Shown: positions 299 to 31,655 of the stretch, in pieces | Position numbering within the stretch: position 1 is the first letter of the stretch | Layout of the letters: each line of letters opens with the position of its first letter | Virus record (IMG/VR): IMGVR_UViG_3300020190_000210 | Location: 1 to 33,388 of that record | DNA: 33,388 nt | Origin: a virus | Strand: one strand, 5' to 3' | Made by a program: the position numbers and the translations under genes | Notes under the pieces: generated by a model | What the model was told of the DNA's origin: nothing | What the model saw: only the letters and a program-made list of their open reading frames with translations | Databases searched by the model: none

Positions 299-306
299 TA
301 TTTATA
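299..306. promoter_or_regulatory. TATTTATA/TATAAATA octamer between divergent genes
   Basis: The octamer reads TATTTATA on the plus strand, before the tail tube gene, and TATAAATA on the minus strand, before the homing-endonuclease-like gene. TATAAATA is the T4 late -10 sequence, so the correctly oriented use would be on the minus strand. Confidence 0.35.
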
Positions 307-861: not shown

Positions 862-875
862 CTATTTATTATTAT

Positions 876-1772: not shown

Positions 1773-1851
1773 TTAAATAATGTATAGTTGCTTTAGTATA
1801 AAATATAATAACTAAAAAGTTATATAAAGCACTATATATTGTTATAAAGTT

Positions 1852-2903: not shown

Positions 2904-2911
2904 TATTTATA
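2904..2911 (+). promoter_or_regulatory. TATTTATA octamer before the tape measure gene
   Basis: TATTTATA lies six bases before the ATG at 2918. No Shine-Dalgarno sequence is present between. Confidence 0.35.
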
Positions 2912-6270: not shown

Positions 6271-6278
6271 TATTTATA
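6271..6278 (+). promoter_or_regulatory. TATTTATA octamer before the baseplate gene
   Basis: TATTTATA lies four bases before the ATG at 6283 in the 17-base gap after the tape measure gene. Confidence 0.35.
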
Positions 6279-9157: not shown

Positions 9158-12046
9158 ATGGCAAACGAACCGGAAATAGAAGAAGCGCCACAGTGGTGGG
9201 AAGTACAAAATATTCCAGTAGCACTTGTAAGAGAATTACGAAGAAGAAAAAATTCAAATAATATTGGAATGGAGTTTCCTACACCAGGCAGTCCGTCTTC
9301 ATTAACATATAACTTTTTTAAAAATCATTCAAAATATAAAGGGCCTATGACACCGTGGGTTCGTATATTTTCAAACGGCACCGGATTGGCTGGAAATGGA
9401 CTTGTTCCTCGTTCTAGAATTTTAGATAAAAACGGCAAAGAAAAAGAATATAAAGGTTTTATAATGTTTCCTGGCGAGGGATTTTATGACGCATTTGGAT
9501 ATAGACAAGAAGGAAATATTCTAAAACAAAGCAAAGCAATTATCGGTTATGAGGCAGATGGTACACCCCATTATATAGACCCATCATATAGATCACAATA
9601 TGTGACTCAATGGCCTAGTAATTATTTAGCTGCTGAAACAAAAAACGGGCAAACCGAATATGTTGAAAAATTTTCTTCACAAAAAACTCAAGTATCACCG
9701 ATATTACCACCGCCAGCTTTGGAAAGTGTTGAAATTAAAACGAGTAAAGATATGTTGGCATTTGGCAGTTTTAAGTTCAAATGTTTTAGTCTAGCTCAAG
9801 TGGAATATTTAGCTCCATTTTTCCTTACACCGAGAATAAATGTATTTATTGAAATAGGATGGAATCTCTTCAATGTAGAATCACTAATAAATTTAAATGA
9901 TGAACAAGAATGTTGGAATTTAATACAAACACCACAGACTGTAGTAGATAGATGGTACAAGTCTTACGGTAATTATGGATGTATTACCGGTATAATTACA
10001 AAGTATGATTTTTCTACTCAAGACGGCATGATATATAGTTGCAATGTTGAATTAACATCTCGTCAAGCTTTATATGCAGGTATGCCTGCAGAAAACAATG
10101 TAAGTACTACTACATCCACTACAAAAGATAAAAGTGGACAGGATGTTCCAAATGGAACCAAAGAATATACGGGGTTAAAAACATTTATTAAAACCGCGTT
10201 TCCTAAAATAAGGGAAGCTGTACTTCGTAGAAAAAATTTCATGGATTATGTTGCTTCTACAGTAGGCGGAACAAAATTAAATGATGGTTATGAAGGTGAA
10301 GTAATAAATCATGTTACAAAAAGTACATTTTATGGTGGTAAAATTGAAAACAGAGTGTTCATAGGAAGAACAAATGTTCCCGACATTTACAAACGAGCTG
10401 CAATACCAGACGGTGATAATTTCATTCCATATAGTTCTCCACCTGGTGTAAAAGCAATTTCTTTTTTAAACGATAAAGATTTTGATAGCAAAAACAATGA
10501 TGATGTTTGGATTCAATTGGATTTTTTATTTGAAGTTGTAAATAAATTTTGTTCGGTTGAAAAAAATAAAACATTTACAATTGATGTAGATAAGATAATT
10601 AATGCACATCCAAATCTTGTCTCCTGTGACCCAAATGTTTTAATACCGAATGGTATTGCTCCAAAGTTTAATATTGGAAGAATCGCACCTTCTCCTGAAG
10701 TCGTAAAATCTTTAAACGAAGAAACTACTGATAATGATACTAGACAAGAAGCTGAAAAAAAAATATCCACATTAAACGGGTATGTACCACAAGAGAGTAT
10801 AAACGATCCATTTTTTTCTTCGAAATACGATCTTGAAGTGGATAATTCCAGTCAAATATTTAAAGCTGCTAAAAAAGTAGAAACTGTGTTTAAAACTACG
10901 GGTGCGTATAGAGATAATTTAGATACAATCATAAATCGTTTATATTATGATATAGGCGTTGAAGCTGGAATGAATATTTCTGAAAATGATCCACAAACAA
11001 ATATTTCTTTTCCGTTTATTTTTGATAAGACTGTTAATTTATCAGGTGACAAACTTATATTAATAGATCCAGCAAAAGGAAGGCCTGATGTAGTTCAAAG
11101 AACTTTTGAAAAATATAAATTTGGAAATCTTAAAAACATATATGTAAAACATAAAAAAATAATGGAAATTAGTGAAAGTTCTGAAGTAACTACACTTCAA
11201 CAATTTGCTACTGCAATTTTAAATCTAATTAATGATGCTGTAGACGGTTTTTGGAAATTTCAAGTTTCTCAATCAGATGACGGTGGATTGTCAATTGTAG
11301 ATAACAACTATGCTAATTTAGGTGAAAAAGCACCTACATTAAGTAAAGTATATGTTTTTGATATCGCAAGTACTGAATCTTTTATTAAATCTGTATCATT
11401 AAATACGTCTCTTACATCCGAACAAGCGACTCTCACATTATTTCAAGCAGGTCAAAATAAACCGATTGATAGTGATACAAGTATGTCTGCTAGAAATTCT
11501 AGTCAACCCGCAATTGCATATATTGACAGATTAGAAAAATTTAATCCATCTGAAGATGGCACAGGTGAAAGTAATGAAGTACCTTCAAAAAGCGAAATAA
11601 CAGTAGATCAAAATCCGTTAATTGCTGGTATACAAACTTACGGTAAATCTGATAACGTTTTAATGGTTACCAGCGCTTATGTTAAAGATGGACAAAAACC
11701 AGAGGACGCTGATAAAAATTATAAGCAACTTAATTTACCACCTGATTTAAAAGACAAATTGTCACAAATTATAGATGACGGCGATGTAGAAGGCAATTTA
11801 CCACTTTATAGTGGAATTTCACCTAACTTCCAAATAACAGTAACTTTTGACGGTATATTTGGATTTAGAATGTTTCAACATTTTGGAATTACAAATTTAC
11901 CAAAACCATATATACCGGAAAATGTCATATTTATGATAACGGATGTCACACATAATATAACTGAAGGTGGTGGTAAATGGGAAACTGTAGTCGGTTGTCT
12001 AGCTAGATGTGTGGCTGGGCAAAATATTGAACTTGTACCAATTTGA
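9158..12046 (+). CDS. Baseplate hub protein, gp27-like
   Basis: A 962-residue structural protein. The region 185-300 (VEIKTSKDMLAFGSFKFKCF, PFFLTPRINVFIEIGW, then GCITGIITKYDFSTQDGMIY) reads like the hub fold that adapts sixfold tube to threefold spike. The C-terminal segment includes NFQITVTFDGIFGFRMFQHF, then VIFMITDVTHNITEGGGKWE and a final 'TVVGCLARC', matching the 'TGxxHxIxxgxWxT' end of many hub proteins. Neighbours are the LysM protein upstream and a small unknown protein whose ATG follows one base after this stop, supporting a baseplate operon. It is more than twice as long as T4 gp27, with long insertions, so extra functions such as spike or fibre attachment are possible. Confidence 0.6.
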   Translation: MANEPEIEEAPQWWEVQNIPVALVRELRRRKNSNNIGMEFPTPGSPSSLTYNFFKNHSKYKGPMTPWVRIFSNGTGLAGNGLVPRSRILDKNGKEKEYKGFIMFPGEGFYDAFGYRQEGNILKQSKAIIGYEADGTPHYIDPSYRSQYVTQWPSNYLAAETKNGQTEYVEKFSSQKTQVSPILPPPALESVEIKTSKDMLAFGSFKFKCFSLAQVEYLAPFFLTPRINVFIEIGWNLFNVESLINLNDEQECWNLIQTPQTVVDRWYKSYGNYGCITGIITKYDFSTQDGMIYSCNVELTSRQALYAGMPAENNVSTTTSTTKDKSGQDVPNGTKEYTGLKTFIKTAFPKIREAVLRRKNFMDYVASTVGGTKLNDGYEGEVINHVTKSTFYGGKIENRVFIGRTNVPDIYKRAAIPDGDNFIPYSSPPGVKAISFLNDKDFDSKNNDDVWIQLDFLFEVVNKFCSVEKNKTFTIDVDKIINAHPNLVSCDPNVLIPNGIAPKFNIGRIAPSPEVVKSLNEETTDNDTRQEAEKKISTLNGYVPQESINDPFFSSKYDLEVDNSSQIFKAAKKVETVFKTTGAYRDNLDTIINRLYYDIGVEAGMNISENDPQTNISFPFIFDKTVNLSGDKLILIDPAKGRPDVVQRTFEKYKFGNLKNIYVKHKKIMEISESSEVTTLQQFATAILNLINDAVDGFWKFQVSQSDDGGLSIVDNNYANLGEKAPTLSKVYVFDIASTESFIKSVSLNTSLTSEQATLTLFQAGQNKPIDSDTSMSARNSSQPAIAYIDRLEKFNPSEDGTGESNEVPSKSEITVDQNPLIAGIQTYGKSDNVLMVTSAYVKDGQKPEDADKNYKQLNLPPDLKDKLSQIIDDGDVEGNLPLYSGISPNFQITVTFDGIFGFRMFQHFGITNLPKPYIPENVIFMITDVTHNITEGGGKWETVVGCLARCVAGQNIELVPI

Positions 12047-12047
12047 T

Positions 12048-12431
12048 ATGAAAGATACACCGGATAATGTCAAGGTTAAGTTAGATTTAGGTACTTTTAA
12101 TCTAAATCTACCTATAGCATTTTTGCCAAAACCTACACAAAATGATTATAAAATTGGATATGTTGACAGATACGTTGTAGGAAGAATAAATTCAAATGAA
12201 ATAATAGAAGTGTCAAAAGACAATTACAATTTAGTTTCTACATTGCTTTATAAAAGAATTAAATTCAAATGGAAAATTGTAGGTACACTAAATAACAAAT
12301 ACGAAGGCAAAATGTTGACACAACAAGGAGTTATAGATTTTAATCGCAAACAGATTAATGACATAGATAAAGAAATTCCAGGTGTCAAAGATATTTTTAC
12401 AAATTATACTCAATTTTATAAACCAAGTTGA
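12048..12431 (+). CDS. Unknown protein, last gene of baseplate operon
   Basis: I do not recognise this 127-residue protein. The start at 12048 (MKDTPDNVKVKLDLGTFNLN) is chosen because it follows the hub stop by a single base; an in-frame ATG at 12009 would overlap the hub gene and adds an unconvincing leader. The predicted product is beta-rich at the N-terminus with a short Pro-rich loop (IAFLPKPTQND) and helical towards the C-terminus (VIDFNRKQINDIDKEIPGVK). It has no signal peptide or membrane segment. The tight coupling to the hub gene suggests a virion or baseplate assembly role. Its stop codon overlaps the -35 element of the next promoter. Confidence 0.7.
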   Translation: MKDTPDNVKVKLDLGTFNLNLPIAFLPKPTQNDYKIGYVDRYVVGRINSNEIIEVSKDNYNLVSTLLYKRIKFKWKIVGTLNNKYEGKMLTQQGVIDFNRKQINDIDKEIPGVKDIFTNYTQFYKPS

Positions 12432-12456
12432 CAAATTTGTTTTTTTGAGTTATAGT
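12428..12456 (+). promoter_or_regulatory. Sigma70-like promoter for the Pol A-like gene
   Basis: TTGACA at 12428-12433 and TATAGT at 12451-12456 are separated by 17 bases. The -10 box ends six bases before the GTG start at 12463, so transcription should begin at the start codon itself and the mRNA would be leaderless. Confidence 0.75.
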
Positions 12457-12462
12457 TAGTAT

Positions 12463-13743
12463 GTGCAGTTTTCCAAGAAAATATATTTAAAGTTTATTAT
12501 ACAAGACAATAATCGTCATAACATATGTAATAAACCTATTGCTGCATTTGTATACGATTATCATTCGGGAGATAAACACTATTACAACTTTGAACATAAA
12601 GATTTACCTCAAGATATATCATTTGATAAATTCAAAAAGTCTTTGAGTGGTAAAAGTGTTTATGTTAATAATAAAAAGACTTACAAGTATTGGTTAAATT
12701 GTGATTTGTATGATGTCAACTTGTTTGGTTTTATAAAGAATAATGAAACATTGTCGGAACCGAATAATACTTGTAAAAATACATTTTCAATATCACATAA
12801 TAATCTAAAAGACTTTAATTTGATTGTACCTTATGTGGTACATCAAAATGTGTTTGATAATGAAGTAGAACAAATAAAAGAGTTAGGTAAAGAAAAGACT
12901 GACACTTATTGTTATAAATTCTTTAATAATATCATCAGTGAAACTCTGTATAAAGTTGAAAAAAATGGTATAAAGATTGATAATGAAATATACAGCAAGT
13001 ACTTTGAAGCACGAACCACCAACGGATTTGTATATACCGATTATCACATTTACAATCCAACTGGTAGACCAAGTAATTGTTATGATGGTATAAATTATGT
13101 AGCACTAAAGAGAGATGATGGTTCTAGAGCTAGTTTTGTATCTAGATACGAAGATGGTTATTTATTGATGGTAGACTTTACCGGATTTCATCCATATATT
13201 GTTGCTAACCTAATTGATTATAAAGTTCCTGAAAAAGAGACGATTTATGAACATTTAGCTAAACAATATTATGATGTGGATGAAGTGACCTCCGATTTAC
13301 TGGCAAAAAGTAAGAAATTAACAATGGTAAATCTATATGGACAGATACCTAAACAATATTGCGGTATACCATACTTTGCTGAGGTAGAAAAATTAAAAGA
13401 AGAATATTGGAAAAAGTTTGAATCAAAAGGATATGTAACGACTCCTATTTATAAACGAAAGATAACCAATAAACATGTATTAGACGCAAATAAAAATAAA
13501 CTATTTGCATATATTATACAGGCTACTGAGACTGAGTATGGTATTGACAGATTAAACGCTTGTTTAAAGTATGTAAGCGGTAAAGAGATATTACCTATAT
13601 TATATAATTATGATGCTATATTGTTTGATGTAGGTAATGTAGAACAGTCTGAAATAGATGATTTAATCAATATTATTAAGAACAACCGGTTTAAAGTAAA
13701 GGTTTATAAAGGTAAGAATTACAATGATTTAGTAATAGTTTAA
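12463..13743 (+). CDS. Family A DNA polymerase, polymerase domain only
   Basis: The 426-residue protein carries the Pol I-type palm and fingers in order: a TGRPS segment with INYVALKRDDGSRASFV near 205-225, motif A as LLMVDFTGFHPYIVANL with the catalytic Asp at 238, a divergent O-helix LAKSKKLTMVNLYGQI near 282-297, a LFAYIIQATETEYGIDRLN helix, and motif C as YNYDAILFDV with Asp384. No 3'-5' exonuclease domain is present; the N-terminal 170 residues are unassigned. Motif C lacks the usual His before Asp and the Glu after it (NYDA instead of VHDE), and the O-helix lacks the canonical Arg, so it is a divergent member. The start is GTG with no ribosome-binding site, directly at the predicted transcription start. 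A stand-alone polymerase domain implies a separately encoded proofreading nuclease. Confidence 0.8.
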   Translation: MQFSKKIYLKFIIQDNNRHNICNKPIAAFVYDYHSGDKHYYNFEHKDLPQDISFDKFKKSLSGKSVYVNNKKTYKYWLNCDLYDVNLFGFIKNNETLSEPNNTCKNTFSISHNNLKDFNLIVPYVVHQNVFDNEVEQIKELGKEKTDTYCYKFFNNIISETLYKVEKNGIKIDNEIYSKYFEARTTNGFVYTDYHIYNPTGRPSNCYDGINYVALKRDDGSRASFVSRYEDGYLLMVDFTGFHPYIVANLIDYKVPEKETIYEHLAKQYYDVDEVTSDLLAKSKKLTMVNLYGQIPKQYCGIPYFAEVEKLKEEYWKKFESKGYVTTPIYKRKITNKHVLDANKNKLFAYIIQATETEYGIDRLNACLKYVSGKEILPILYNYDAILFDVGNVEQSEIDDLINIIKNNRFKVKVYKGKNYNDLVIV

Positions 13744-13746
13744 TTA

Positions 13747-13754
13747 TATTTATA
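13747..13754 (+). promoter_or_regulatory. TATTTATA octamer before the 765-residue unknown gene
   Basis: TATTTATA, followed by an overlapping TATTTATT, lies upstream of the ATG at 13772. Confidence 0.35.
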
Positions 13755-13771
13755 TTTATTAACTATACTAA

Positions 13772-16069
13772 ATGAACTTTAAATCAGTATTAAACGATGT
13801 TTGTTGCGATTATCGTATAAAAAACGGTACAATAAATCTAAAGAATGAAGATCATGTTTTTGTGCTTCAAGAGTATCTTGAAAAAGCAGGATTTGATATT
13901 GAAACTATTGTAGATAAAACCGCTAAGTTATTTGAAACCGGTAGATTTCCAGAAAGACAAGCTTATAATAAGGATGGTATTTTGGTAACATTTCCAAGCA
14001 AAGAATATCGTGATAGAGCTATAAATAAGGGTACACATTTTGCTGAAAATCCAAAGAAAGCTCAAGCTAATATATTTACACAACCTCCGATTGATATACA
14101 ACCTGAAGAACCAAAAGGAAGTGTACCTGTAGATACTGAGTTGGATAAAGATCTAGAAGATGAAAAAGAAGATGGTTATGAAGATAGAACTCCAAAAGAA
14201 AAAGTAGTTGATGCTCAAGCCGTTGATGCTATATTAACCGGCGAAACACCGTTAGTAAATTATAGTGTAGATGAAGTTAAAAGATATGGCTTTTATAACA
14301 AAGGAATGTTGTGGTATGATACTGAAGGTAATTTAATCGGCGAACAAATATTTGATGAAAAAGTCGGTACAAAAGTCGTTGCAAAAAAAATTAATTCCAA
14401 TTTTTTAAAATTAATTGATGAAACAAAAAGAAATGCTGAAGTATTAGAAACTTTACCACTGTTAAAATGTTTTGGTGTTAATACATACCAAGATTTGGTA
14501 AATTTTGTTACAAGTGGTAATATAGATAAATACGATTTTACCGATAAAGGTAAAATGTGGCTTAAAAAGGTTATTTCAAATTTAAATGACGAAGAATCAA
14601 AAAATAGTTTTATAGATTTTTACAATCAGACAGCAGGTACTTCACAAACTCTAAATAATATTACGAATCAACCAGTCACATCGTTTATACATAAAAACAT
14701 AATTAACTATAGAAAAATTTTAAAACAAAAAACTAATACAGATGATGAATCAAAAGCAAATACATCTGATATTATATTAATTTATGGTGGTAGTAAAGAG
14801 GATTTGATTTCTAATTTATCAAAAATAACAAGTGAACAAGATTTGTTAATAAACGACGATGGTACAATTTCATTTAAAAAAAATCCTAGCTTAAAATTCT
14901 CACAAGTTTCTTTGAAAAAGGGAGATGCTAAATTAGGAAAAATTACAAAGAAGTTTTTTTCTATGATCGGAGACAAACCAAATGAAACTCCGATAAAAGA
15001 AATTATAAATGAAGGACTTGTTACAGATTTTTTGACGGGATTAAAAAACAAAATTAATACTGCCGGACAAAATTTGTCTAAAAAAATGTCTAATATTTAT
15101 AATTGGTTTTCTTCAAAAATAAATGCCTTTTATGAAAGTGTTATAACCATATTTCGTTCTATACCGATGAACGAAATAGAACAAGAGGATAAAAATCTAG
15201 AGAAATTTACAGCTGAGTTAGAACAATCAAATATTGACTCTAATCAAAGTATTAAAGAATTATCGGACAATGAAATACCTATAACAAATTGTAATTACTT
15301 AGCAATGACACAATTTTATGATTTTTATAAAAAAATAGGTTTTAAAAATTTAATACAACAATATAAAATTTTGTCAATACTTGAAAAATCAGGTGGGTTT
15401 TCTTTACATATTGGTAAAATAGATGAAAATCATTACAATCAAATTGATTTAGCAATTAAAAAAATATATGATATATTTTATACCGCCGCAAAATCAAAAA
15501 ACTTTTTTAAAATACAAGAATTAAATGAAGCTAAGGAATGTATTTACACCGGTAAAAATATTACTAGAGAACAAATAGAACCTGCTTTAAAGTTGAGAGC
15601 TAATCATATAGCGTTAAGAAAAATAGACGAACTAATAAAAAGTGTTCAAAATAATAGTAAATCTACCGAAATTGATGTGAAAGATTTACCATCATTAGCT
15701 GCTACTTTAAGTGCAGAAGCAGTTTTTGGTGATAACAACACATTGCCTCTTTTTAAATTTACAGGCAGTCAATTAATTGATTTAGGAAATAAACAAAGTT
15801 ATATTACTAAAAAAAGAGAACAGTTTAAAAAGTTGGATATTAAAGATATAAATCTTGGATACATAAACATTTATCCAACACTTAAAGAAGACGCATTGCA
15901 TTTTCAAGTTTATATGTATTTGCTTTTTGATTTGGACGGAGATGAACTAACTTTGAGTCCTATGTATAGCGAAATTGCATTTACTGTTGGTAGTGGAAGT
16001 AAATTTGCTTTTAATATAGAAATGAACGGCGTTGTTTCACATAATGAAATAAAATCTAAATTGAAATAA
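13772..16069 (+). CDS. Large unknown protein with possible nuclease-like core
   Basis: I do not recognise this 765-residue protein. The N-terminus includes GRFPERQAYNKDGILVTFPS and INKGTHFAENPKKAQANIF, followed by an acidic Pro/Glu/Asp-rich linker (about 108-145). The middle has a segment TSDIILIYGG near residues 335-345 and FSQVSLKKGDAKLGKITKKF near 375-395; the order 'SD-hydrophobic strand ... Q-x-S-x-K-K' resembles the core of PD-(D/E)xK nucleases, but this is a weak pattern match. The C-terminal part (about 510-765) is helical then beta-rich, ending FNIEMNGVVSHNEIKSKLK. TATTTATA at 13747-13754 lies upstream and the following small gene starts three bases after the stop. A virion protein is an equally possible role. 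Confidence 0.75.
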   Translation: MNFKSVLNDVCCDYRIKNGTINLKNEDHVFVLQEYLEKAGFDIETIVDKTAKLFETGRFPERQAYNKDGILVTFPSKEYRDRAINKGTHFAENPKKAQANIFTQPPIDIQPEEPKGSVPVDTELDKDLEDEKEDGYEDRTPKEKVVDAQAVDAILTGETPLVNYSVDEVKRYGFYNKGMLWYDTEGNLIGEQIFDEKVGTKVVAKKINSNFLKLIDETKRNAEVLETLPLLKCFGVNTYQDLVNFVTSGNIDKYDFTDKGKMWLKKVISNLNDEESKNSFIDFYNQTAGTSQTLNNITNQPVTSFIHKNIINYRKILKQKTNTDDESKANTSDIILIYGGSKEDLISNLSKITSEQDLLINDDGTISFKKNPSLKFSQVSLKKGDAKLGKITKKFFSMIGDKPNETPIKEIINEGLVTDFLTGLKNKINTAGQNLSKKMSNIYNWFSSKINAFYESVITIFRSIPMNEIEQEDKNLEKFTAELEQSNIDSNQSIKELSDNEIPITNCNYLAMTQFYDFYKKIGFKNLIQQYKILSILEKSGGFSLHIGKIDENHYNQIDLAIKKIYDIFYTAAKSKNFFKIQELNEAKECIYTGKNITREQIEPALKLRANHIALRKIDELIKSVQNNSKSTEIDVKDLPSLAATLSAEAVFGDNNTLPLFKFTGSQLIDLGNKQSYITKKREQFKKLDIKDINLGYINIYPTLKEDALHFQVYMYLLFDLDGDELTLSPMYSEIAFTVGSGSKFAFNIEMNGVVSHNEIKSKLK

Positions 16070-16072
16070 ATC

Positions 16073-24235: not shown

Positions 24236-24625
24236 ATGAAAAAATCATTAATTCTATCAATATTGACACTCGTATTCTCACTTACTGATGTAAATGCGGG
24301 AAGTTTTAGTTGGGGAATATCTTTTGGCTTCGGAGGAGGATTTTGTGCTCCTGTATATTATCCTCCTGTAGTTTGTGCGCCGGTTGTATGTGCTACGCCA
24401 GTGGTATATACTCAACCAGTTGTACACCACATAGTTTACACTCAACCAGTTGTGTATACACCGCCTGTAGTTTATACTCAACCAGTATGTACTGTACCGG
24501 TTGTAAATTATTATCGTCCAGATTGTTATCGTTCTCCAGTGACAGGCACCGTATGGGTAGGCGGCGCATCAAGTAGTCATCGTCCCGTTGTACATCGTCC
24601 CGTTGTACAACGTAGAAACCGTTGA
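24236..24625 (+). CDS. Secreted Val/Pro/Tyr-rich repeat protein
   Basis: The 129-residue product begins MKKSLILSILTLVFSLTDVN, a clear Sec signal peptide with a probable cleavage after NA at residue 21. The mature part starts GSFSWGISFGFGGGF and continues as imperfect repeats of VVYTQPVV/VVCAPVV units with six cysteines after the signal, then a basic C-terminus with two copies of HRPVV. Such low-complexity Tyr/Pro/Val proteins are common among bacterial envelope proteins and rare in phages. Flanking promoter-like and terminator sequences make it an independent unit, typical of a 'moron' gene carried for a benefit to the infected cell or for surface exclusion. Periplasmic or outer-surface location is likely; function is unknown. 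Confidence 0.75.
   Translation: MKKSLILSILTLVFSLTDVNAGSFSWGISFGFGGGFCAPVYYPPVVCAPVVCATPVVYTQPVVHHIVYTQPVVYTPPVVYTQPVCTVPVVNYYRPDCYRSPVTGTVWVGGASSSHRPVVHRPVVQRRNR
24411..24608 (+). repeat. Imperfect tandem repeats within the secreted protein gene
   Basis: ACTCAACCAGT recurs three times between about 24411 and 24488, coding for TQPV units. CATCGTCCCGTTGTA is repeated directly in tandem near 24579-24608, coding for HRPVV. Such DNA repeats allow length variation by slippage. Confidence 0.7.
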
Positions 24626-24643
24626 ATTTCAACAACTTATACG

Positions 24644-24676
24644 AAAAAACCGCTAGGAAACTGGCGGTTTTTTTTA
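24644..24676 (+). terminator. Intrinsic terminator after the secreted protein gene
   Basis: AAAAAACCGCTA (24644-24655) pairs with TGGCGGTTTTTT (24662-24673), with one G-U, around the six-base loop GGAAAC, and ends in a long T run. Confidence 0.9.
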
Positions 24677-24685
24677 TTTTGACGG

Positions 24686-24713
24686 TTGACTTTATTTAAA
24701 TGTGTGGTAATAT
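24686..24713 (+). promoter_or_regulatory. Sigma70-like promoter for the AAA+/VWA operon
   Basis: TTGACT (24686-24691) and TAATAT (24708-24713) are 16 bases apart, directly after the preceding terminator. The leader (24720-24739) ends AATTAAATAATAAAT before the ATG, with no Shine-Dalgarno sequence. Confidence 0.6.
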
Positions 24714-24739
24714 TGTCTTATAACAATTAAATAATAAAT

Positions 24740-25714
24740 ATGAAGAACAATAAAACTACTATTAACCTCCTCACATCTAAGAACTTCAACATGAAGGATT
24801 ATCTTGACAAGTGTATTAGTTTGCGTCCTACCTCATTGATTATGGGTGATTTGAAATGGAAGTACATGGTTCGTAGCGCCATTCGCGGTAAGAACATTTT
24901 ACTTCTTGGTCCTACTGGATGTGGTAAGACTCTTGCTGCTCAGACAGTTGCGAAGGTGCTTGGTAAAGAGTCTAGTTTTTATTATTTCAATCTCGGTGCT
25001 ACACAAGATGCTCGTAGTGCTCTAATTGGTAATACCCACTTTGATAAGGGTACTGGTACACTTTTTAAGGAATCTAGCTTTGTCAAGGCAATTCGTACTC
25101 CAAGTGCAATTATTCTTCTTGATGAGATCAGCCGGGCTCATCATGACGGTGTAAATATTTTGATGACTGTACTTGATGATCTTCAACGTTATCTACGATT
25201 GGATGAAAAGGAAGACAGTGAGATTGTAAAGGTTGCTGAAGGCGTTACTTTTATTGCTACCGCTAATGTTGGTAATGAATATACCGCAACTAGAGTTATG
25301 GACCGCGCTCTTCTCAGTCGTTTTCCAGTTAAGATTGAGATGAGTCCACTTGATGTTGACAGTGAATATAATTTGCTTAAAACTCGTTTTGATATTAACG
25401 ATGATAAACAACTCGGAATTCTCAAGAGTGTTTGTGAGATTGCTGACCATACTCGTAAGCAAGTCAAGACAGAAGATAGTAAGTTGACCAATTTTATTCC
25501 TACTCGTAGTACGGTTGAAATCGCTGAACTTATTGTTGATGGATTTAATTTGCTTGAAATTGCTGAGTCTACCATCTATCCTAATTTCACTGAGGACGGC
25601 GGTGTTGATAGCGAACGAACCTATATGAAGCAGCTTGTACAAAAGTATGTACCTAGTGAAAGTAAAGAGAATTTGTTCAATGATCCTCTGAAGAGCGATC
25701 AACCTCCGTTCTAA
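24740..25714 (+). CDS. MoxR/CobS-like AAA+ ATPase
   Basis: The 324-residue protein is a single AAA+ module of the MoxR/CobS branch: Walker A GPTGCGKT at 57-64, Walker B AIILLDEISRA near 123-133, sensor-1 FIATANVGNEYTATRV, and an arginine-finger segment DRALLSRFPVKIEM. The C-terminal lid (SVCEIADHTRKQVKTED to RSTVEIAELIVDGFNLLEI) completes the fold. MoxR-type ATPases act as hexameric chaperones that pair with VWA-domain proteins to remodel or insert metals in targets; the next gene encodes such a partner 18 bases downstream. CobS itself belongs to aerobic cobaltochelatase, so a cobalt-insertion role linked to the B12-dependent reductase is conceivable, but the sequence alone cannot separate it from a general MoxR chaperone. 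GC-ending codons suggest good expression. Confidence 0.85.
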   Translation: MKNNKTTINLLTSKNFNMKDYLDKCISLRPTSLIMGDLKWKYMVRSAIRGKNILLLGPTGCGKTLAAQTVAKVLGKESSFYYFNLGATQDARSALIGNTHFDKGTGTLFKESSFVKAIRTPSAIILLDEISRAHHDGVNILMTVLDDLQRYLRLDEKEDSEIVKVAEGVTFIATANVGNEYTATRVMDRALLSRFPVKIEMSPLDVDSEYNLLKTRFDINDDKQLGILKSVCEIADHTRKQVKTEDSKLTNFIPTRSTVEIAELIVDGFNLLEIAESTIYPNFTEDGGVDSERTYMKQLVQKYVPSESKENLFNDPLKSDQPPF

Positions 25715-25732
25715 TTTTAACAAAATATTATT

Positions 25733-27796
25733 ATGGGTAGTCTAAGTGATTTCTGGCTAACAGAACATGACGAGTGGGATTTTATTGAAGAAGCAAAAGC
25801 TGATAATGAGGCTGTTGCTTTAACGGATGAAATGATTGAAACTCGTCAGAGTGAACACACTCGTCAGTTGATTAGGCTGTCGTCTGCTCGTCGTGCGATT
25901 GCTAACTATGTTAGTATTTTGACTAATCAAAATATTCCGGTTACATTTAATGATAACAATATTAATTGTACCGATGGAACTCATGTTTACTTAAGTAGTG
26001 ATATCACCAAAAAGGATAATTTTGATGTTGCTGTAGGACTTTCTCTACATGAGGCTAGTCATATCAAGTATAGCGATTTTGAATTGTTCAAGAGTATTTG
26101 GATGAAAGTTCCTCGTAGTATTTACGATATAACTGAACCGCTTAATATTAGTAAGAATGTTGTAAGCAATATTTGTAAGGATCTTCTTAATTATGTGGAG
26201 GATCGTTATATTGACTACATGGTACACACAAATGCGCCTGGTTACCGTGGTTATTACGATGCTTTATATGATAAGTATTTTAATGCCAAAGTTATTAATG
26301 ATGCTTTGGACAGTGAACTATATAAGGTGCCTGGTGTAGAGTCTTATATGTTTCGTATCATTAATCTTACGAATCCCAATACAAATTTGCGAGCATTGCC
26401 TGGTTTGATCGATATTGCTAAGGCTTTGGATTTGAGTAACATTATTCGTCTGTCTAAGCCGGAAGATCGATTAAATGTTGCTTTTACTATTGCTGAGATT
26501 TTATTTAAAAATATTACTGAAGTAGATGAGACCAAAACTGTTAAATCTGTTGACGAAAAATCCGGTGAAGGCGATGGTGAATTACAAGAATCTAATAAAA
26601 ATGATGAAAACAATGTAGCTGTTACTGGTAGTGTGGAAGATATTCTTGGTGGAGAACAAACGGCGGTTAATTCAACCAATGATGTTGTTACCAATATCGG
26701 ACAAGATAGTACTATTAGTAAAGCAAAGTTGGAAAAGATTAAGAAGGCTTTTAATAGACAAAAAGATTTTATCAAAGGAACTCTTAAGAAAAAGAAAGTT
26801 TCTAAGAAAGAGAAACAGATTCTTGATACTCTTGAAAAGAGCAAGGTTGAATTGGTTGATGTTGCACATGACTATACAAAAAAATTTAATGGTGGTGCTA
26901 TCGAATGTATCGTTGTTAAAAACATGACTAAAGATTTGCTTTTTTCTGATCAGTGTCCTCTATACATTGGTGATGGTAATGACATTTCTTACAAGAAGAA
27001 TTTGGATTCCATCAACCAAGGTATTATTATGGGCACTAAACTTGGCCGTCGTCTACAAATTCGTAATGAAGTTAATACTTTCAAGTTTTCTCGTAGATAT
27101 ACTGGAAAGTTAGATAAACGTTTGATTCATGAACTCGGATTTAGTGACGAGAATATTTTTTATACTACTCTTACCGAAAAGTATAAGAAAATTAATTTTC
27201 ACATTAGCGTTGATGCTAGTGCTAGTATGCATGGGTCCAAGTGGAATCGTGCTATTAAATTGTGTGTATCTCTTGCTAAGGCTGCAAGTATGTTGGACAA
27301 TGTTAATCTAACTATTAGTTTTAGAACTACTACCAATCGTAATCCATATATTCTTGTTGCTTATAATAGTAAGGTAGATAAGTTTAGTAAGATTCGTAAC
27401 TTGTTTCCGTATTTGAGTGCTAGGGGTACTACGCCCGAAGGACTGTGTTTTGAGGCTATTATGAAGTATCTACCTGTGGCAGACGATAATACTAATAGTT
27501 ACTTTGTGAATATGAGCGATGGCGAACCATATTTTACTGCTTATGTTGATAATCAGAGCGTTATTTCATATTCTAATGAGGAAGCTGCCAAACATACTCA
27601 AACCCAAGTAAAAAAGATCCGTAATAATGGTTATACTGTAATCAGTTATTTTATTACAGACCATTACATTAATCCTAACAGCAAAGAGTTGTTTAAGATT
27701 ATGTATGGAGTTGACGCAAATTATATCAATGTAGAGAACTATGTACAGATAGCCAATACTCTTAATAAAAAGATGATGGAATCACTTGACATATAA
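25733..27796 (+). CDS. VWA-domain protein with HExxH metallopeptidase-like domain (CobT/COG3864-like)
   Basis: The 687-residue protein is the partner of the AAA+ ATPase. Its N-terminal domain has VAVGLSLHEASHIKYSDFEL, with HEASH at 106-110 forming an HExxH zinc motif as in predicted metallopeptidase/VWA proteins. A central acidic and Ser/Asn-rich linker (about 265-320) leads to a basic helical region KKAFNRQKDFIKGTLKKKK. The C-terminal VWA domain has the MIDAS residues: DASAS at 494-498, the Thr of ARGTTPEG near 565, and Asp in MSDGEPYF near 594, so a metal-dependent binding site is complete. CobT and the MoxR-associated VWA proteins share this layout. Whether HEASH is proteolytically active is not known. 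There is no ribosome-binding site. The promoter of the next gene overlaps its last codons. Confidence 0.82.
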   Translation: MGSLSDFWLTEHDEWDFIEEAKADNEAVALTDEMIETRQSEHTRQLIRLSSARRAIANYVSILTNQNIPVTFNDNNINCTDGTHVYLSSDITKKDNFDVAVGLSLHEASHIKYSDFELFKSIWMKVPRSIYDITEPLNISKNVVSNICKDLLNYVEDRYIDYMVHTNAPGYRGYYDALYDKYFNAKVINDALDSELYKVPGVESYMFRIINLTNPNTNLRALPGLIDIAKALDLSNIIRLSKPEDRLNVAFTIAEILFKNITEVDETKTVKSVDEKSGEGDGELQESNKNDENNVAVTGSVEDILGGEQTAVNSTNDVVTNIGQDSTISKAKLEKIKKAFNRQKDFIKGTLKKKKVSKKEKQILDTLEKSKVELVDVAHDYTKKFNGGAIECIVVKNMTKDLLFSDQCPLYIGDGNDISYKKNLDSINQGIIMGTKLGRRLQIRNEVNTFKFSRRYTGKLDKRLIHELGFSDENIFYTTLTEKYKKINFHISVDASASMHGSKWNRAIKLCVSLAKAASMLDNVNLTISFRTTTNRNPYILVAYNSKVDKFSKIRNLFPYLSARGTTPEGLCFEAIMKYLPVADDNTNSYFVNMSDGEPYFTAYVDNQSVISYSNEEAAKHTQTQVKKIRNNGYTVISYFITDHYINPNSKELFKIMYGVDANYINVENYVQIANTLNKKMMESLDI

Positions 27797-27813
27797 TATA
27801 ACAATGATATAAT
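27786..27813 (+). promoter_or_regulatory. Consensus sigma70 promoter for the winged-helix gene
   Basis: TTGACA (27786-27791) and TATAAT (27808-27813), both perfect consensus, are 16 bases apart. It overlaps the stop codon of the VWA gene and is the strongest-looking promoter of the window. Confidence 0.8.
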
Positions 27814-27822
27814 ATAATTTAT

Positions 27823-27835
27823 GGTATAGTATACC
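27823..27835. promoter_or_regulatory. Palindromic operator-like site GGTATAGTATACC
   Basis: A 13-base perfect odd palindrome lies ten bases after the -10 element, near the predicted transcription start. The longer sequence ATGGTATAGTATAC (27821-27834) is repeated exactly at 28484-28497, where it forms the -10 region of the DruA-like gene. It could also act as a second -10 box (TATAGT). Confidence 0.5.
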
Positions 27836-27871
27836 AATTAACATAAACAAAAATAATAAGGAGAAATAAAA

Positions 27872-28237
27872 ATGAAAAAGACTGATCGTAAGAACAAGAC
27901 CAACCTAACCGTTAAGTGGCCTACCAACGCTTTTACAATTAAGGAGTTGAATCAGGCTAATCCAGACTTTGTAGAGATTACTCTACGAGTTCGCCTTAAG
28001 AAGGCTATCGAGACTGGCGAGGTTAATGAGATGGGAGTACTTCACAACGGTAAGGGTCGTCCAACAATTGTGTTTGTACATGGTACACCGACACAGGCTC
28101 ATATTGATGAGGCTAAGTCTAGAGAAGTTATTCTCAAAGATAGTATGACTTTCAATATTTTGGCAGTTGATACTACTAAGCCATCTACAAATGATAAGGT
28201 AATTGTTCTGAATGTAGACAGTAAGATTACGGCTTAA
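27872..28237 (+). CDS. Probable winged-helix DNA-binding protein
   Basis: The 121-residue protein begins with a basic tail MKKTDRKNKTNLTVKWPTN and continues FTIKELNQANPDFVEITLRV, RLKKAIETGEV, then GVLHNGKGRPTIVFVHG. The order 'start helix, recognition helix T-L-R-x-R-L, turn, G-x-G-R-P wing' is that of small winged-helix proteins common in phages. The C-terminal 45 residues are an added beta-type extension. It has the best Shine-Dalgarno sequence of the window (AAGGAG seven bases before ATG) and a consensus promoter, so early and strong expression is expected. The palindrome at its transcription start, copied in the next promoter, is a natural candidate binding site for this protein, which would make it an autoregulator; that is inference. 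Confidence 0.62.
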   Translation: MKKTDRKNKTNLTVKWPTNAFTIKELNQANPDFVEITLRVRLKKAIETGEVNEMGVLHNGKGRPTIVFVHGTPTQAHIDEAKSREVILKDSMTFNILAVDTTKPSTNDKVIVLNVDSKITA

Positions 28238-28245
28238 GTATATAA

Positions 28246-28485
28246 TTATATATTATAAGACCACTGGCGGTTCAATGTTAATGGACCGCCTTTTTCTTTT
28301 ACATAATAGTAAATTGAAGCGTTCTTGTTATATTGTTTAATATTTTTAATTATACCCTCAATCATATTCCATTTACCATAATATATAGGAATATCAAATT
28401 TATTATCATATATAACAAATTCGGTTGTAGATAATTCTAATATGTAGAATATATTCTCTTTTATATTGAGTTTCTTGAAAGTCAT
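28246..28485 (-). CDS. Possible small unknown protein, convergent
   Basis: A minus-strand frame of 79 codons starts with ATG at 28485 (MTFKKLNIKENIFYILELST) and ends at TAA 28248-28246; an in-frame ATG at 28509 would overlap the start of the plus-strand neighbour. The product reads like a small alpha/beta protein (FVIYDNKFDIPIYYGKWNMI, then EGIIKNIKQYNKNASIYYYV) and fills an otherwise empty 262-base gap. Because the promoter region here is palindromic, TATACT also reads on the minus strand five bases before this ATG. Against it: the last codons coincide with the plus-strand terminator and no family is recognised. Confidence 0.42.
   Translation of the reverse strand: MTFKKLNIKENIFYILELSTTEFVIYDNKFDIPIYYGKWNMIEGIIKNIKQYNKNASIYYYVKEKGGPLTLNRQWSYNI
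28266..28295 (+). terminator. Intrinsic terminator after the winged-helix gene
   Basis: GGCGGTTC (28266-28273) pairs with GGACCGCC (28283-28290), with one G-U, around a nine-base loop, followed by TTTTTCTTTT. It lies inside the 3' end of the convergent minus-strand reading frame. Confidence 0.85.
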
Positions 28486-28493
28486 GGTATAGT
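28466..28493 (+). promoter_or_regulatory. Promoter for the DruA-like gene, overlapping the palindromic 14-mer
   Basis: TTGAGT (28466-28471) and TATAGT (28488-28493) are 16 bases apart. The -10 is inside the repeated ATGGTATAGTATAC and ends six bases before the ATG at 28500, predicting a leaderless mRNA. Confidence 0.65.
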
Positions 28494-28499
28494 ATACAT

Positions 28500-29684
28500 A
28501 TGGAACCATTTGAAAAATTTTTTGGAGTGAAGAAATTTAATTTTGATTTTAACAAAAAGAGATTAGTTGATAATCTAAATTTCTTAAAAGCTATGTCTGT
28601 AGAAGAACAGACTTTCTACAAGAAATGGTTAGAAGTACAAAATTATAGAGATATAGCTAGTAAACTTAATACTATTAAAGCTAAGATATGGACTCCAACC
28701 GACATCAATGATGAATTACTTACAATAAAAGAAATAGAAAACTGTCAACCTGAATTATTGTATGTAGAAACTAAACAACAAAATGAAGATTGGACTCTAT
28801 TGAGAGTATTTGTAAGCACATTTGAGTTCAGTCAAACTCCTGGCAGATTTCTTAAATTTCTCGTTATAGATAAAAGTAAACCAGAAACTCCTTATATTGG
28901 CGTACTAGCAGTAAGTAGCGATGTTATTACTATTACTGATCGTGATAACTATATTGGTTGGAATAAAAATAATAAGATTGAGGATAAGAAATTAGCACAT
29001 AGCGCAATTGGTAGTAGTATTATTAGTACACAACCATTTGGTTATAATTTCTTGGGTGGTAAGTTAGCAGCTGCGATGGTAGTTAGTAAAAGTGTACAAG
29101 ATAAGTGGAGAGAACTATACAATCAAACTCTTGTAGGTATGACAACAACTAGTTTGTATGGTAGTTACAGTATGTATAATAGTCTAAAGTGGTGGCATAA
29201 GTGTGGTACTAGCGCTGGTAAAATTGCAATTAAACCTGATGATGATATTTACAAAATTTGGCATGACTGGTTGAAAGTTGAATGTAAAGAAAAGTATGAA
29301 AACGCTATGACTCAAAAAGAAGGTGTATCAGGTCCAGTTACAGGTGCTAAAAGTAGAGTATTATCTATGTTGTTTAGTAAATGTGATTTAAAACAAAGTC
29401 ATTATCAACATGGATATGAGAGAGGAGTATACTATAGTTGTTTTTATGAAAACACCAAAGAGTATCTTCAAAATAAAATTGGTGATAATGATTTGAGGAT
29501 AAAAGAACTTTTTAAACGTGATATAAACGGAATAATGGATTGGTGGAGACCCAAAGCTGTAGATAGGTATAAAAAGTTAAAGAATGAGGACAATTTAAAG
29601 CCTGACATACATTATTATAATAAAATGATAGGTATGACGTATGATGAAGCTAAATCTGCTTACTTTAATGAAGTGGGAAGATAA
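28500..29684 (+). CDS. DUF4338/DruA-like protein
   Basis: The 394-residue protein has the layout of the DUF4338 family, best known as DruA of the Druantia defence system. Seen in order: an N-terminal helical segment, the strand pair RFLKFLVIDKSKPETPYIGV, LAVSSDVITITDRDNYIGWN, a polar segment with LAHSAIGSSIISTQPFGYN, FLGGKLAAAMVVSKSVQDKW and LVGMTTTSLYGSYSMYNSLK. The C-terminal half contains a HYQHGYERGVYYSCFYENT segment and GIMDWWRPKAVDRYKKL. The 'I-G-W' and 'G-G-K-L' features are those I associate with the family; the match is from memory. Function in phages is unknown. It is a stand-alone gene with its own leaderless promoter; none of the other Druantia components is nearby. Confidence 0.5.
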   Translation: MEPFEKFFGVKKFNFDFNKKRLVDNLNFLKAMSVEEQTFYKKWLEVQNYRDIASKLNTIKAKIWTPTDINDELLTIKEIENCQPELLYVETKQQNEDWTLLRVFVSTFEFSQTPGRFLKFLVIDKSKPETPYIGVLAVSSDVITITDRDNYIGWNKNNKIEDKKLAHSAIGSSIISTQPFGYNFLGGKLAAAMVVSKSVQDKWRELYNQTLVGMTTTSLYGSYSMYNSLKWWHKCGTSAGKIAIKPDDDIYKIWHDWLKVECKEKYENAMTQKEGVSGPVTGAKSRVLSMLFSKCDLKQSHYQHGYERGVYYSCFYENTKEYLQNKIGDNDLRIKELFKRDINGIMDWWRPKAVDRYKKLKNEDNLKPDIHYYNKMIGMTYDEAKSAYFNEVGR

Positions 29685-29688
29685 CTAC

Positions 29689-29716
29689 TTGACATTTTAT
29701 AAATAAATAATATAAT
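29689..29716 (+). promoter_or_regulatory. Consensus sigma70 promoter for the UvdE-like gene
   Basis: TTGACA (29689-29694) and TATAAT (29711-29716), both consensus, are 16 bases apart. The -10 ends six bases before the ATG at 29723. A TATAAATA lies in the spacer. Confidence 0.8.
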
Positions 29717-29722
29717 ATAAAA

Positions 29723-30634
29723 ATGAATAAATCTCTTTGTTGTATTTCTCTTAAGTTGCAAGAACAGGGTATTAAAGCGTCCACAATGACAAAGACTCGA
29801 TTTTTATCACTTAATCGTAAAGAAGCTGAAAAAATTGTAGCTGATAGAACACTAAATAACGTATATGTTACTCGTAAAACGCTGGAGTTTTGCGCTTTAC
29901 GTAAATGGAACTACCGAGTAACAAGTGGTATGATGCCACTAGAAACGCTTCCTGAAGCTAATTTGTTGTTAGAAAACACATACAATTATAAAGCAATACA
30001 AAATGAGTTTGGTTTGTGTGCTAAAATTATTAAACAAAACAAAATACGGTGTAGCACTCATCCTGACCAATTTGTTGTACCTGCAAGTGCAAATCCTACT
30101 GTAGTTAATAAATCTATTGAGGAATTGAACATGCATGCTAAAATGATGGATATGTTGGAACTACCTCAAAGTTATGAAGCTCCTATTAATATTCACATTA
30201 ACTGTTATAAAGGTAATGTAAAAGACATCGCCTTGCGCTTTATTGATGTATATAACACACTTTCACACAATGTGAGGTCTAGGCTAGTACTTGAGAACGA
30301 AGACAAACCTAATAGTTGGAATGTTCAAGAATTGTATGATATTATTTACTGTAAGACTGGTATTCCTATTACTTACGACAATCTTCATTTTCGTTGTAAT
30401 AGTGGCAAGTTAACGGCTAAAGAGGCTGTAAACCTAGCTTGTAGCACTTGGCAAAATTATCGACCGTTGTTTCACTTTAGTGACAATGACCCAAGTAATC
30501 GCAATCCTAGAGCACACGGTGATTATGTTCGTGAACTACCTAGTGAATATCTAAATTTAGATGTTGATTTTGAATTTGAGTTCAAGGCAAAAGACTATGC
30601 AATTGAACGATTTGAGACTGAATATAAAATTTAA
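29723..30634 (+). CDS. UV damage endonuclease, UvdE/UvsE-like
   Basis: The 303-residue protein has the UvdE TIM-barrel signatures: KSLCCISLKLQEQGIKASTM with TKTRFLSLNRKEAEKI at the start, a NYRVTSGMMPLETLPE segment, CSTHPDQFVVPASANP with the metal-ligand His, PINIHINCYKGN, RLVLENEDKPNSWNVQELYD with the conserved Glu of the active site, ITYDNLHFRCNSG, and LFHFSDNDPSNRNPRAHGDY towards the end. Such enzymes nick DNA 5' to UV photoproducts and use divalent metals (usually Mn). It would repair phage DNA after light exposure, which fits a phage from sunlit environments, although that is inference. There is no Shine-Dalgarno sequence; the mRNA is predicted to be leaderless. Confidence 0.85.
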   Translation: MNKSLCCISLKLQEQGIKASTMTKTRFLSLNRKEAEKIVADRTLNNVYVTRKTLEFCALRKWNYRVTSGMMPLETLPEANLLLENTYNYKAIQNEFGLCAKIIKQNKIRCSTHPDQFVVPASANPTVVNKSIEELNMHAKMMDMLELPQSYEAPINIHINCYKGNVKDIALRFIDVYNTLSHNVRSRLVLENEDKPNSWNVQELYDIIYCKTGIPITYDNLHFRCNSGKLTAKEAVNLACSTWQNYRPLFHFSDNDPSNRNPRAHGDYVRELPSEYLNLDVDFEFEFKAKDYAIERFETEYKI

Positions 30635-30964: not shown

Positions 30965-31222
30965 ATGAACGAAAACCATAATTTGGTTTGGATGTGGTTG
31001 CTGGCTAGTCTGGCAACCACATTTTCTTTAATTAATATCTATTTGTTCTATAGATTGTTAAAGAAATTAGATGACAATATGCTTGTAGTGTCTGAAGCAC
31101 TAGAAGTATATAACGAACAACTATCTCGTATTGTAAAAGATGTTGAGTTGCTAAAAAAGAGTGTTAGAATGATGAATAATGAAGTCAAAGAAAACATTCG
31201 ATATCGAAAAGACAAAGAGTAA
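30965..31222 (+). CDS. Single-pass membrane protein with coiled coil
   Basis: The 85-residue protein has a short polar N-terminus, a membrane helix at about 8-30 (LVWMWLLASLATTFSLINIY) and then a charged coiled coil to the end (LLKKLDDNMLVVSEALEVYN, IVKDVELLKKSVRMMNNEVK). The coiled coil would probably lie in the cytoplasm, because its start is basic. The last 44 bases overlap the start of the clamp-loader gene in another frame, which suggests translational coupling. Function is unknown; no lysis gene motif is visible. Confidence 0.65.
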   Translation: MNENHNLVWMWLLASLATTFSLINIYLFYRLLKKLDDNMLVVSEALEVYNEQLSRIVKDVELLKKSVRMMNNEVKENIRYRKDKE

Positions 31223-31655
31223 GGGATTATTTGATCACGTAAATCATATTCGTGAGATTAAAGATCCTAATTATTATGTTAACTTGACTGATGAAGAAAA
31301 GAAGTCATTTAACAAATATATGCTTGTACGCATATTGAGTATGGATAATGATGTGATTGAAGAAATGGCGATAATATCAAAGTATTTTCAGGTAATACCT
31401 GAAGCACAATTTTATAAGGTATTAATTGATGTAATTCCAAGAGGAAGAAAGTTTTGTAAGTATATCAAGAAAAGTACTGAAAATGTAAACGAAACTATAT
31501 TAGAATGCATTTGTAATAAGTTTACTGTAGGGAAAAGAGATGCTACGGATTATTACAACATACTTATGTCAAACGATACTGGTATTCAAGAACTTGTATC
31601 TTTAATTGAAGGATATGGATATAGTGAAAAAGAGGTAGAAAAGTTATTTAAATAA
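31179..31655 (+). CDS. Clamp-loader small subunit, T4 gp62-like
   Basis: The 158-residue protein matches the gp62 pattern: an N-terminal segment (KSKGLFDHVNHIREIKDPNY), a helical part FNKYMLVRILSMDNDVIEEM, then the conserved EAQFYKVLIDVIPRGRKFCK (T4 gp62 has a comparable 'HFNYLMAAVPRGKRYGKW') and CNKFTVGKRDATDYYNILMS, equivalent to the gp62 'RY-x-V-N-x-x-D-A-x-x-Y-x-x-I-L' element. The gp44 ATPase and the gp45 clamp are not in the window. With gp44 it would load the sliding clamp for the replicase and late transcription. The ATG at 31179 overlaps the upstream gene; this start is chosen because the product then begins with a family-like N-terminus. The dNMP kinase gene follows one base after its stop. 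Confidence 0.7.
   Translation: MKSKKTFDIEKTKSKGLFDHVNHIREIKDPNYYVNLTDEEKKSFNKYMLVRILSMDNDVIEEMAIISKYFQVIPEAQFYKVLIDVIPRGRKFCKYIKKSTENVNETILECICNKFTVGKRDATDYYNILMSNDTGIQELVSLIEGYGYSEKEVEKLFK

Follow-up and report, generated by a model that had tools for sequence, protein, structure and literature searches.

Leaderless initiation is a known and uncommon way of starting protein synthesis, and transcription usually begins 6-7 nucleotides (nt) past the -10 box of a promoter. The subject of this work is a group of promoter-like sequences which stand directly against start codons in a stretch of viral DNA, IMG/VR record IMGVR_UViG_3300020190_000210, analysed over its whole length of 33,388 bases (32% GC; hereafter the window), and in its relatives; the genes behind them, among others those of a short family-A DNA polymerase and of the UV endonuclease UvdE, are predicted to give leaderless or near-leaderless mRNAs. 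Comparable arrangements have been described in several systems. In bacterial and archaeal genomes a TANNNT motif some 12 bp ahead of the start was read as a -10 box giving leaderless mRNA (Zheng 2011, PMC3160421); these TA-led genes carry the same signal as the genes discussed here, which however belong to a phage and at several sites possess a clear -35 box. In the Deinococcus-Thermus group, where around a third of the genes of D. radiodurans are leaderless and one case involves a GTG, the -10 box is likewise placed directly before the open reading frame (ORF) (PMC12340547), but those promoters are cellular and experimentally tested, whereas the present ones are predicted from sequence. Among phages, lambda has been named for a 5'-terminal start codon (PMC3160421, PMC9031893), transcripts are often leaderless according to the AR9 paper, and the Thermus phage phiYS40 makes most of its middle and late transcripts leaderless, with the expression of IF2 and IF3 being changed (review PMC3594737). 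The original prediction for this DNA, in which lambda cI was cited as an example of the single phage genes with known leaderless mRNAs, thus understates the case: a leaderless phage programme has its precedent in phiYS40 and the mode itself is already known. In contrast to the one repressor gene of lambda, the class described here comprises replication, repair, modification and structural genes. It resembles phiYS40, by description only, in the large number of leaderless transcripts (those of middle and late genes in phiYS40, predicted ones here), and differs from this phage of a Thermus host in that the lineage is T4-like and that host-type and late-type promoters both abut start codons. No report on leaderless mRNAs in this phage lineage was noticed among the matches listed, subscription literature being mostly outside reach.

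The preferred interpretation, to which a probability of about 0.82 is given, is that promoters firing within about 2 bases of the start codon produce leaderless or near-leaderless mRNAs, and that this is a wider habit of the lineage, existing beside leadered genes. It takes the sites to be promoters, would place the transcription start at the usual distance and would have the start codon used at the 5' end. The host-type RNA polymerase would bind a promoter of the TTGACA/TATAAT type and start 6-8 bp past the -10 box, at the start codon, and the ribosome would begin, with no Shine-Dalgarno (SD) sequence, at an AUG or GUG forming the 5' end. Sigma70-type promoters located at 6-8 nt would serve the genes of the polymerase, a clamp loader, UvdE, a Mom-like protein and others; late in infection the motif TATTTAT would play the same part for a phage-directed polymerase, 4-7 nt before many genes of the structural region, while other genes of the same phages would keep their leaders, some of them with SD. 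The start-abutting mode is conserved across relatives and seems to involve promoters of two kinds.

In the window, four genes (encoding the polymerase, a DnaB-like helicase, a DruA-like protein and UvdE) were originally claimed to have a -10 box exactly six bases before the start codon and a -35 box 16-17 bases further upstream, which was confirmed by direct reading and by scoring. The combination of TATANT with a TTG-like -35 box at 16-17 bases occurs at gap 6 (the gap being the number of bases between the -10 box, or TATTTAT, and the start codon) in 4 of the 28 plus-strand genes examined, and the other 59 gaps average 0.034. In upstream regions regenerated with a Markov model the mean at gap 6 was 0.019, and none of 4000 runs gave three or more at any single gap from 0 to 25. 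All four genes also show the TANNNT pattern of Zheng 2011, its first T lying some 12 bp ahead of the start codon. An initial loose promoter scan revealed no clear common peak; a stricter score was then adopted and checked with wrong-spacer controls. Because the motif rule for the window was composed after the sites had been seen, cleaner tests are given by the relatives.

Relatives were reached via the helicase (80 kept of 230) and further ones via the polymerase, UvdE and DruA, and their records are possibly fragments. Counts of orthologues exclude alignments beginning past residue 5, upstreams of less than 90 nt, upstreams at least 80% alike, and aligned starts other than ATG, GTG or TTG (cases being the polymerase of L122 and the UvdE of L066, among others). 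For the polymerase, a promoter was found at gap 6-8 in all 22 non-redundant upstreams (block shuffles: mean 0.28, maximum 3), the best gap being 6 in 14, 7 in four, 8 in three and 5 in one of them, and the spacer being 16 in 15 of the 22. Of 29 distinct aligned upstreams, 28 have GTG as the start codon, an in-frame stop lies no more than 21 nt upstream of the start in 17/22, and the protein is conserved from its first residues; in view of these upstream stops and the conserved N-terminus, an annotation slip at this start is unlikely. For UvdE, a promoter at gap 6-8 from the ATG was present in 15/15 non-redundant upstreams (block shuffles: mean 0.29, maximum 3), with a best gap of 6 or 7 in 12 and a TGn extended -10 in 11 of them. 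Another site, overlooked in the original prediction, precedes the clamp-loader gene at 31179, where 8/8 non-redundant upstreams have a promoter at gap 6-8 (block shuffles: mean 0.17, maximum 2). Under alternative filters the counts are 23/23 for the polymerase, 14/14 for UvdE and 8/8 for the clamp loader, and block shuffles over these three genes together with helicase and DruA averaged 0.17-0.43, with maxima of 2-3.

A further case is offered by a Mom-family DNA-modification gene, whose loci were taken from the best 80 of 158 IMG/VR stretches encoding a relative, four being omitted because of short or unclear upstreams and two long-relative records being added. A promoter at exactly gap 6 was observed in 14 of its 16 non-redundant upstreams; one of the remaining two shows gap 6 when an in-frame ATG three bases upstream is taken as the start, the other has no such promoter, and in many of these genes a near-perfect consensus promoter is found six bases before the start. 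The class, initially described as a set of replication and repair genes, is in this way widened to the clamp loader, the Mom-like gene and others, while structural-region genes share the mode with another motif.

The genome-wide scan for -10-like boxes abutting start codons, which had been proposed as a check, gave a clear excess over controls in four long relatives (173, 132, 100 and 99 kb; 463 genes together), the closest of which is G001. In the wrong-spacer controls the -35 box was sought at four incorrect spacings. At a score of 9.8, 18 promoters were found at gap 6-8 against 1, 1, 1 and 0 in the controls, and at 9.0 there were 30 against 10, 9, 5 and 5; after the removal of nine sites belonging to orthologues of window genes the figures are 15 vs 0.75 (9.8), 9 vs 0.25 (10.4) and 24 vs 7 (9.0). 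Products resembling ThyX, ligase, primase and nuclease were noticed, by eye only, among the start-abutting genes of the long relatives. No promoter at gap 6-8 was detected at score 9.8 in T4 (first 50 kb), Mel-JY01 (100 kb) and immuto (100 kb), and at 9.0 these phages gave 0, 2 and 1, vs 0.5, 0.5 and 1.25 in controls. Over five records, with per-record counts summed, a host-type start-abutting promoter at score 9.0 occurs in 33/489 genes, part of them by chance. These positions, their excess over the controls and the constancy of position amid diverging sequence are direct observations. Coordinates of the features are collected in the table.

Table. Start-abutting promoter-like sites, the genes behind them and contrasting leadered sites (window coordinates unless a locus is given)
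Feature	Position	Strand	Remarks
Polymerase promoter, TTGACA (12428-12433)-17-TATAGT (12451-12456)	12428..12456	+	6 nt to GTG 12463
Short family-A DNA polymerase gene	12463..13743	+	conserved GTG start
Helicase promoter, TTGTAA (19727-19732)-16-TATACT (19749-19754)	19727..19754	+	6 nt to ATG 19761
DnaB-like replicative helicase gene	19761..21146	+	DnaB_C, E 1.7e-21; phrog_19
DruA-like gene promoter, TTGAGT (28466-28471)-16-TATAGT (28488-28493)	28466..28493	+	6 nt to ATG 28500
DruA-family gene	28500..29684	+	PF14236, E 6.7e-20
UvdE promoter, TTGACA (29689-29694)-16-TATAAT (29711-29716)	29689..29716	+	6 nt to ATG 29723
UV-endonuclease UvdE gene	29723..30634	+	PF03851, E 2.4e-40
Promoter-like TTGAGT-16-TAGAAT	31143..31170	+	8 nt before ATG 31179, inside upstream reading frame
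Clamp-loader gene, predicted near-leaderless	31179..31655	+	phrog_225, E 8.2e-15
Mom-family DNA-modification gene	L094:4468-5238 and L211-L290		PF25680, E 1.2e-44
TATTTAT	863..869	+	6 nt before ATG 876, cytidyltransferase-like gene
TATTTAT	2904..2910	+	7 nt before ATG 2918, tape-measure gene
TATTTAT	6271..6277	+	5 nt before ATG 6283, 857-aa gene between tape measure and polymerase
Contrast: TATTTAT	299..305	+	21 nt before tail-tube start 327; SD-like AAAGG in leader
Contrast: consensus promoter TTGACA-16-TATAAT	27786..27813	+	58 nt to ATG 27872; SD-like AAGGAG 27858-27863

The late promoter of the T4 type is TATAAATA, an AT-only -10-like element without a -35 box which precedes late genes. The second kind of putative promoter in the present lineage shares the AT-only element and the missing -35 box, but its motif is TATTTATA and not TATAAATA, and in this phage family the latter, read in gene orientation, does not peak close to starts. 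The words enriched before starts are TATTTAT and ATTTATA, TATTTAT being present in 107 near-start upstreams vs 13 further away. The eight-base TATTTATA peaks at a distance of four bases from the start (25 genes, against a background of 0.18 per position), no reverse complement of it occurs at gap 3-7, and no accompanying -35 box is visible. In five records TATTTAT stands at gap 4-7 before 60/489 genes (shuffles: mean 2.5, maximum 8) and it is kept in 13 orthologue groups (6/6, 4/4, 5/6, 8/11, 7/10 and 7/9, down to 4/7 and 3/7), these figures covering groups with at least three members and at least two matches. No paper describing TATTTAT as a late promoter was found, the subscription literature being mostly outside reach.

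With its SD-like position and no visible -35 box, TATTTAT near starts could also be a signal of translation, in which case the late class would say nothing about leaderless mRNAs. This explanation is not very likely, as can be judged from two related phages, where the motif was sought within 60 nt of genes hand-picked from the annotated structural region. In immuto it precedes 14 of 30 genes, 13 times at 12-31 nt and once at 5, and in Mel-JY01 8 of 21 genes, at 13-37 nt and in some cases together with a GGAG-type SD; in the family itself it precedes the tail-tube gene by 21 nt or more. That related phages have the same element at differing distances speaks for a promoter and not for a fixed ribosome-binding element. 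Within the late class, too, some genes seem to be leaderless and others to have leaders.

As to the factor which might recognise this motif, a conserved basic protein may be a late sigma factor, though the candidate is a weak one. Its gene (L206:1111-2115, minus strand; 112688-113689 in G004) is present in 5/8 family records and, among named phages, in the six that also have the polymerase, namely Mel-JY01, four immuto entries and LR756508. A sub-threshold Pfam match to Sigma70_r2 was obtained in 4/6 records and the profile comparison with T4 gp55 is weak (E 0.064, probability 0.9%). T4 gp55 used as a query gave no match in 6 records; the candidate itself has no PHROG function and no Pfam match, and its model is too poor to use.

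For the sigma70-type sites it may be supposed that the promoters are real and that the main transcripts nevertheless begin upstream and read through, translation starting internally without SD and the abutting promoter being minor or a result of compactness. Indeed, no terminator-like site is listed in 12009-12463 or 29684-29723, the intergenic gap is just 31-46 nt for three of the four genes, and SD-less starts are common in the phage. Such read-through is nonetheless unlikely: the distance between promoter and start is held at 6-8 nt in diverged orthologues, which compactness alone need not require, and the DruA gene lies 262 nt past its neighbour, behind a terminator-like hairpin (28266-28290). 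Another supposition, that the true transcription start is several bases before the codon and leaves leaders of 4-10 nt, finds a basis in the helicase gene, with gap 11 in 5/22 upstreams, and in the DruA gaps of about 10 seen by eye in several relatives. It is quite unlikely, since transcription starts usually lie 6-7 nt past the -10 box and gap 6 is the commonest for both the polymerase (14/22) and the Mom-like gene (14/16); moreover, leaders between 4 and 14 nt were reportedly not found in Lactococcus cremoris. Highly improbable is the view that an AT-rich phage yields TATA-like boxes before starts by chance and that four aligned ones were picked, for although promoter-like matches are abundant at 32% GC (130 vs 97.9 in shuffles), four sites were found against 0.019 expected, and the wrong-spacer controls in relatives and the 22/22 and 15/15 orthologue upstreams oppose it.

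Several observations weigh against leaderless transcription as a habit of the lineage. The leaderless prediction, strongly supported by orthologues for the polymerase and UvdE, has less support from them for the other two genes of the original four, in which the six-base gap is not conserved: a promoter at gap 6-8 was found in only 4/22 helicase upstreams (best gap 6 in three, 11 in five and 8 to 38 in the rest, with 9/22 having no promoter above threshold) and in only 3/11 DruA upstreams, so that the start-abutting spacing of helicase and DruA is lineage-specific. At 31179 the motif is located within coding sequence and protein constraint contributes to its conservation. In the late class, window gene 13772 has TATTTAT 12 and 18 nt upstream, though the motif abuts the start in 8/11 relatives; the tape-measure motif abuts in 3/5 records and is found 17-18 nt upstream in 2/5; before the tail tube the distance of 21 nt or more holds in 5/5 family records, with SD-like stretches recognised by eye; and G001 gave no match to the candidate late sigma gene. 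Genes were called simply as ORFs, and the promoter score uses E. coli-like weights set for this analysis. A 5'-terminal GUG is, according to a review, poorly used in E. coli and better used in mycobacteria and streptomycetes. Finally, the missing SD is not diagnostic in this phage, in which it is common, and adds little. The initial statement that none of the four genes has an SD is correct insofar as no SD-like 4-mer was seen by eye before any of them, but it carries little weight with SD being rare phage-wide. SD-like 4-mers at -17 to -5 were counted in 28/192 (G001), 13/109, 10/77, 10/82 and 4/29 (window) genes, the background stretch counts for the same five records being 9, 10, 5, 8 and 0; SD appears to be used by a minority of genes. 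Before the polymerase, UvdE and clamp-loader genes such 4-mers occur in 0/22, 1/15 and 0/8 upstreams, respectively.

The leadered state is well illustrated by gene 27872, with the best promoter at gaps 21-55 in 13/14 upstreams (the reach of the scan being 55) and an SD-like 4-mer in 14/14. Weak 5' folding, considered as a mark of leaderless genes, was rejected since this leadered gene is equally weak. A TATAA-rich stretch right after TTGACA is shared by its promoter (27792-27807) and that of UvdE (29695-29710), in many relatives as well by eye, and is possibly an operator or an overlapping promoter; in most UvdE orthologues a TTATAAA-like stretch can be seen by eye within the spacer.

The gene content of the window is T4-like and includes a tail tube, a baseplate hub, a tape measure, a gp32-like protein, RecA and a 5'-3' exonuclease, as well as the DnaB-like helicase, a class II ribonucleotide reductase, DruA, UvdE and the clamp loader. 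The polymerase has no match in Pfam or PHROG; it resembles the 'DNA polymerase family A' of immuto (25.5%, E 2e-31), and a profile of 8 polymerase sequences matches Klenow-fragment entries (E 3.4e-6). By annotation immuto and Mel-JY01 have a second, larger polymerase elsewhere, and for this reason the short enzyme may not be the main replicase. A T at position -1 before the polymerase GTG (20/22) was considered as a transcription-start signature and dropped, a pyrimidine being equally frequent there in several other gene sets. Codon third positions within TTGA and TAGAAT before the clamp-loader gene (window 31143-31178) are T in 8/8 upstreams, as read by eye. In L056, L052, L064, L066, L069 and L077, which are without a start-abutting helicase promoter, a hairpin-like inverted repeat was seen by eye approximately 20-60 nt before the start; these repeats are short and their sequence varies among relatives. 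Directly before the ATG of the baseplate-hub gene at 1852 stands TATATATTGTTATAAAGTT (window 1833-1851), which is identical in G001 and G004.

With regard to the translation machinery and the host, it was suggested in the original prediction that leaderless mRNAs may favour translation by altered or 70S ribosomes during infection. Neither an IF3 nor a bS21 gene was found in the records of ten relatives, possibly fragments, and a ribosome altered by phage genes was not adopted into the explanation. The tRNA-Met of G001 was rejected as an initiator, because its first base is paired (G1-C72, by eye) and it is not initiator-like. No relative was confirmed when GTDB genomes were scanned with the helicase, and psbA was not found in ten records. 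One-piece tmRNA (RF00023) is encoded in two phage relatives (L097:9653-10037, minus strand, and L098:757-1144, plus strand), with the tags AEDNVVSYDFSYDDVVALAA and AEENVVSYDFSYENVGAVAA; the tag pattern is present in 46 IMG/VR stretches and in none of the contigs of the GTDB collection searched.

A more far-reaching and only tentative proposal, judged from sequence features, is that a genome-wide leaderless programme operates in this T4-like lineage, host-type promoters and the phage's own late promoters both having been moved against start codons. Such a programme might split the genome into the leaderless polymerase, clamp loader, repair and modification genes and some virion parts on the one side and leadered genes on the other, the latter, some with SD, being the tail tube and probably the capsid and others. 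Since a leaderless start would work only at the 5' end of an mRNA, late read-through transcripts would then be barred from making early proteins, and translation would be gated by the promoter used. If transcript mapping agrees with the start-abutting reading, the lineage would become a natural comparison, with TATTTAT near many starts here vs mostly 12-37 nt upstream in its Flavobacterium and Microcystis relatives, and one could trace how mRNA leaders were gained or lost in evolution. The annotation of start codons in such phages should in that case consider promoters, and the finding would point toward hosts whose ribosomes accept leaderless mRNAs.

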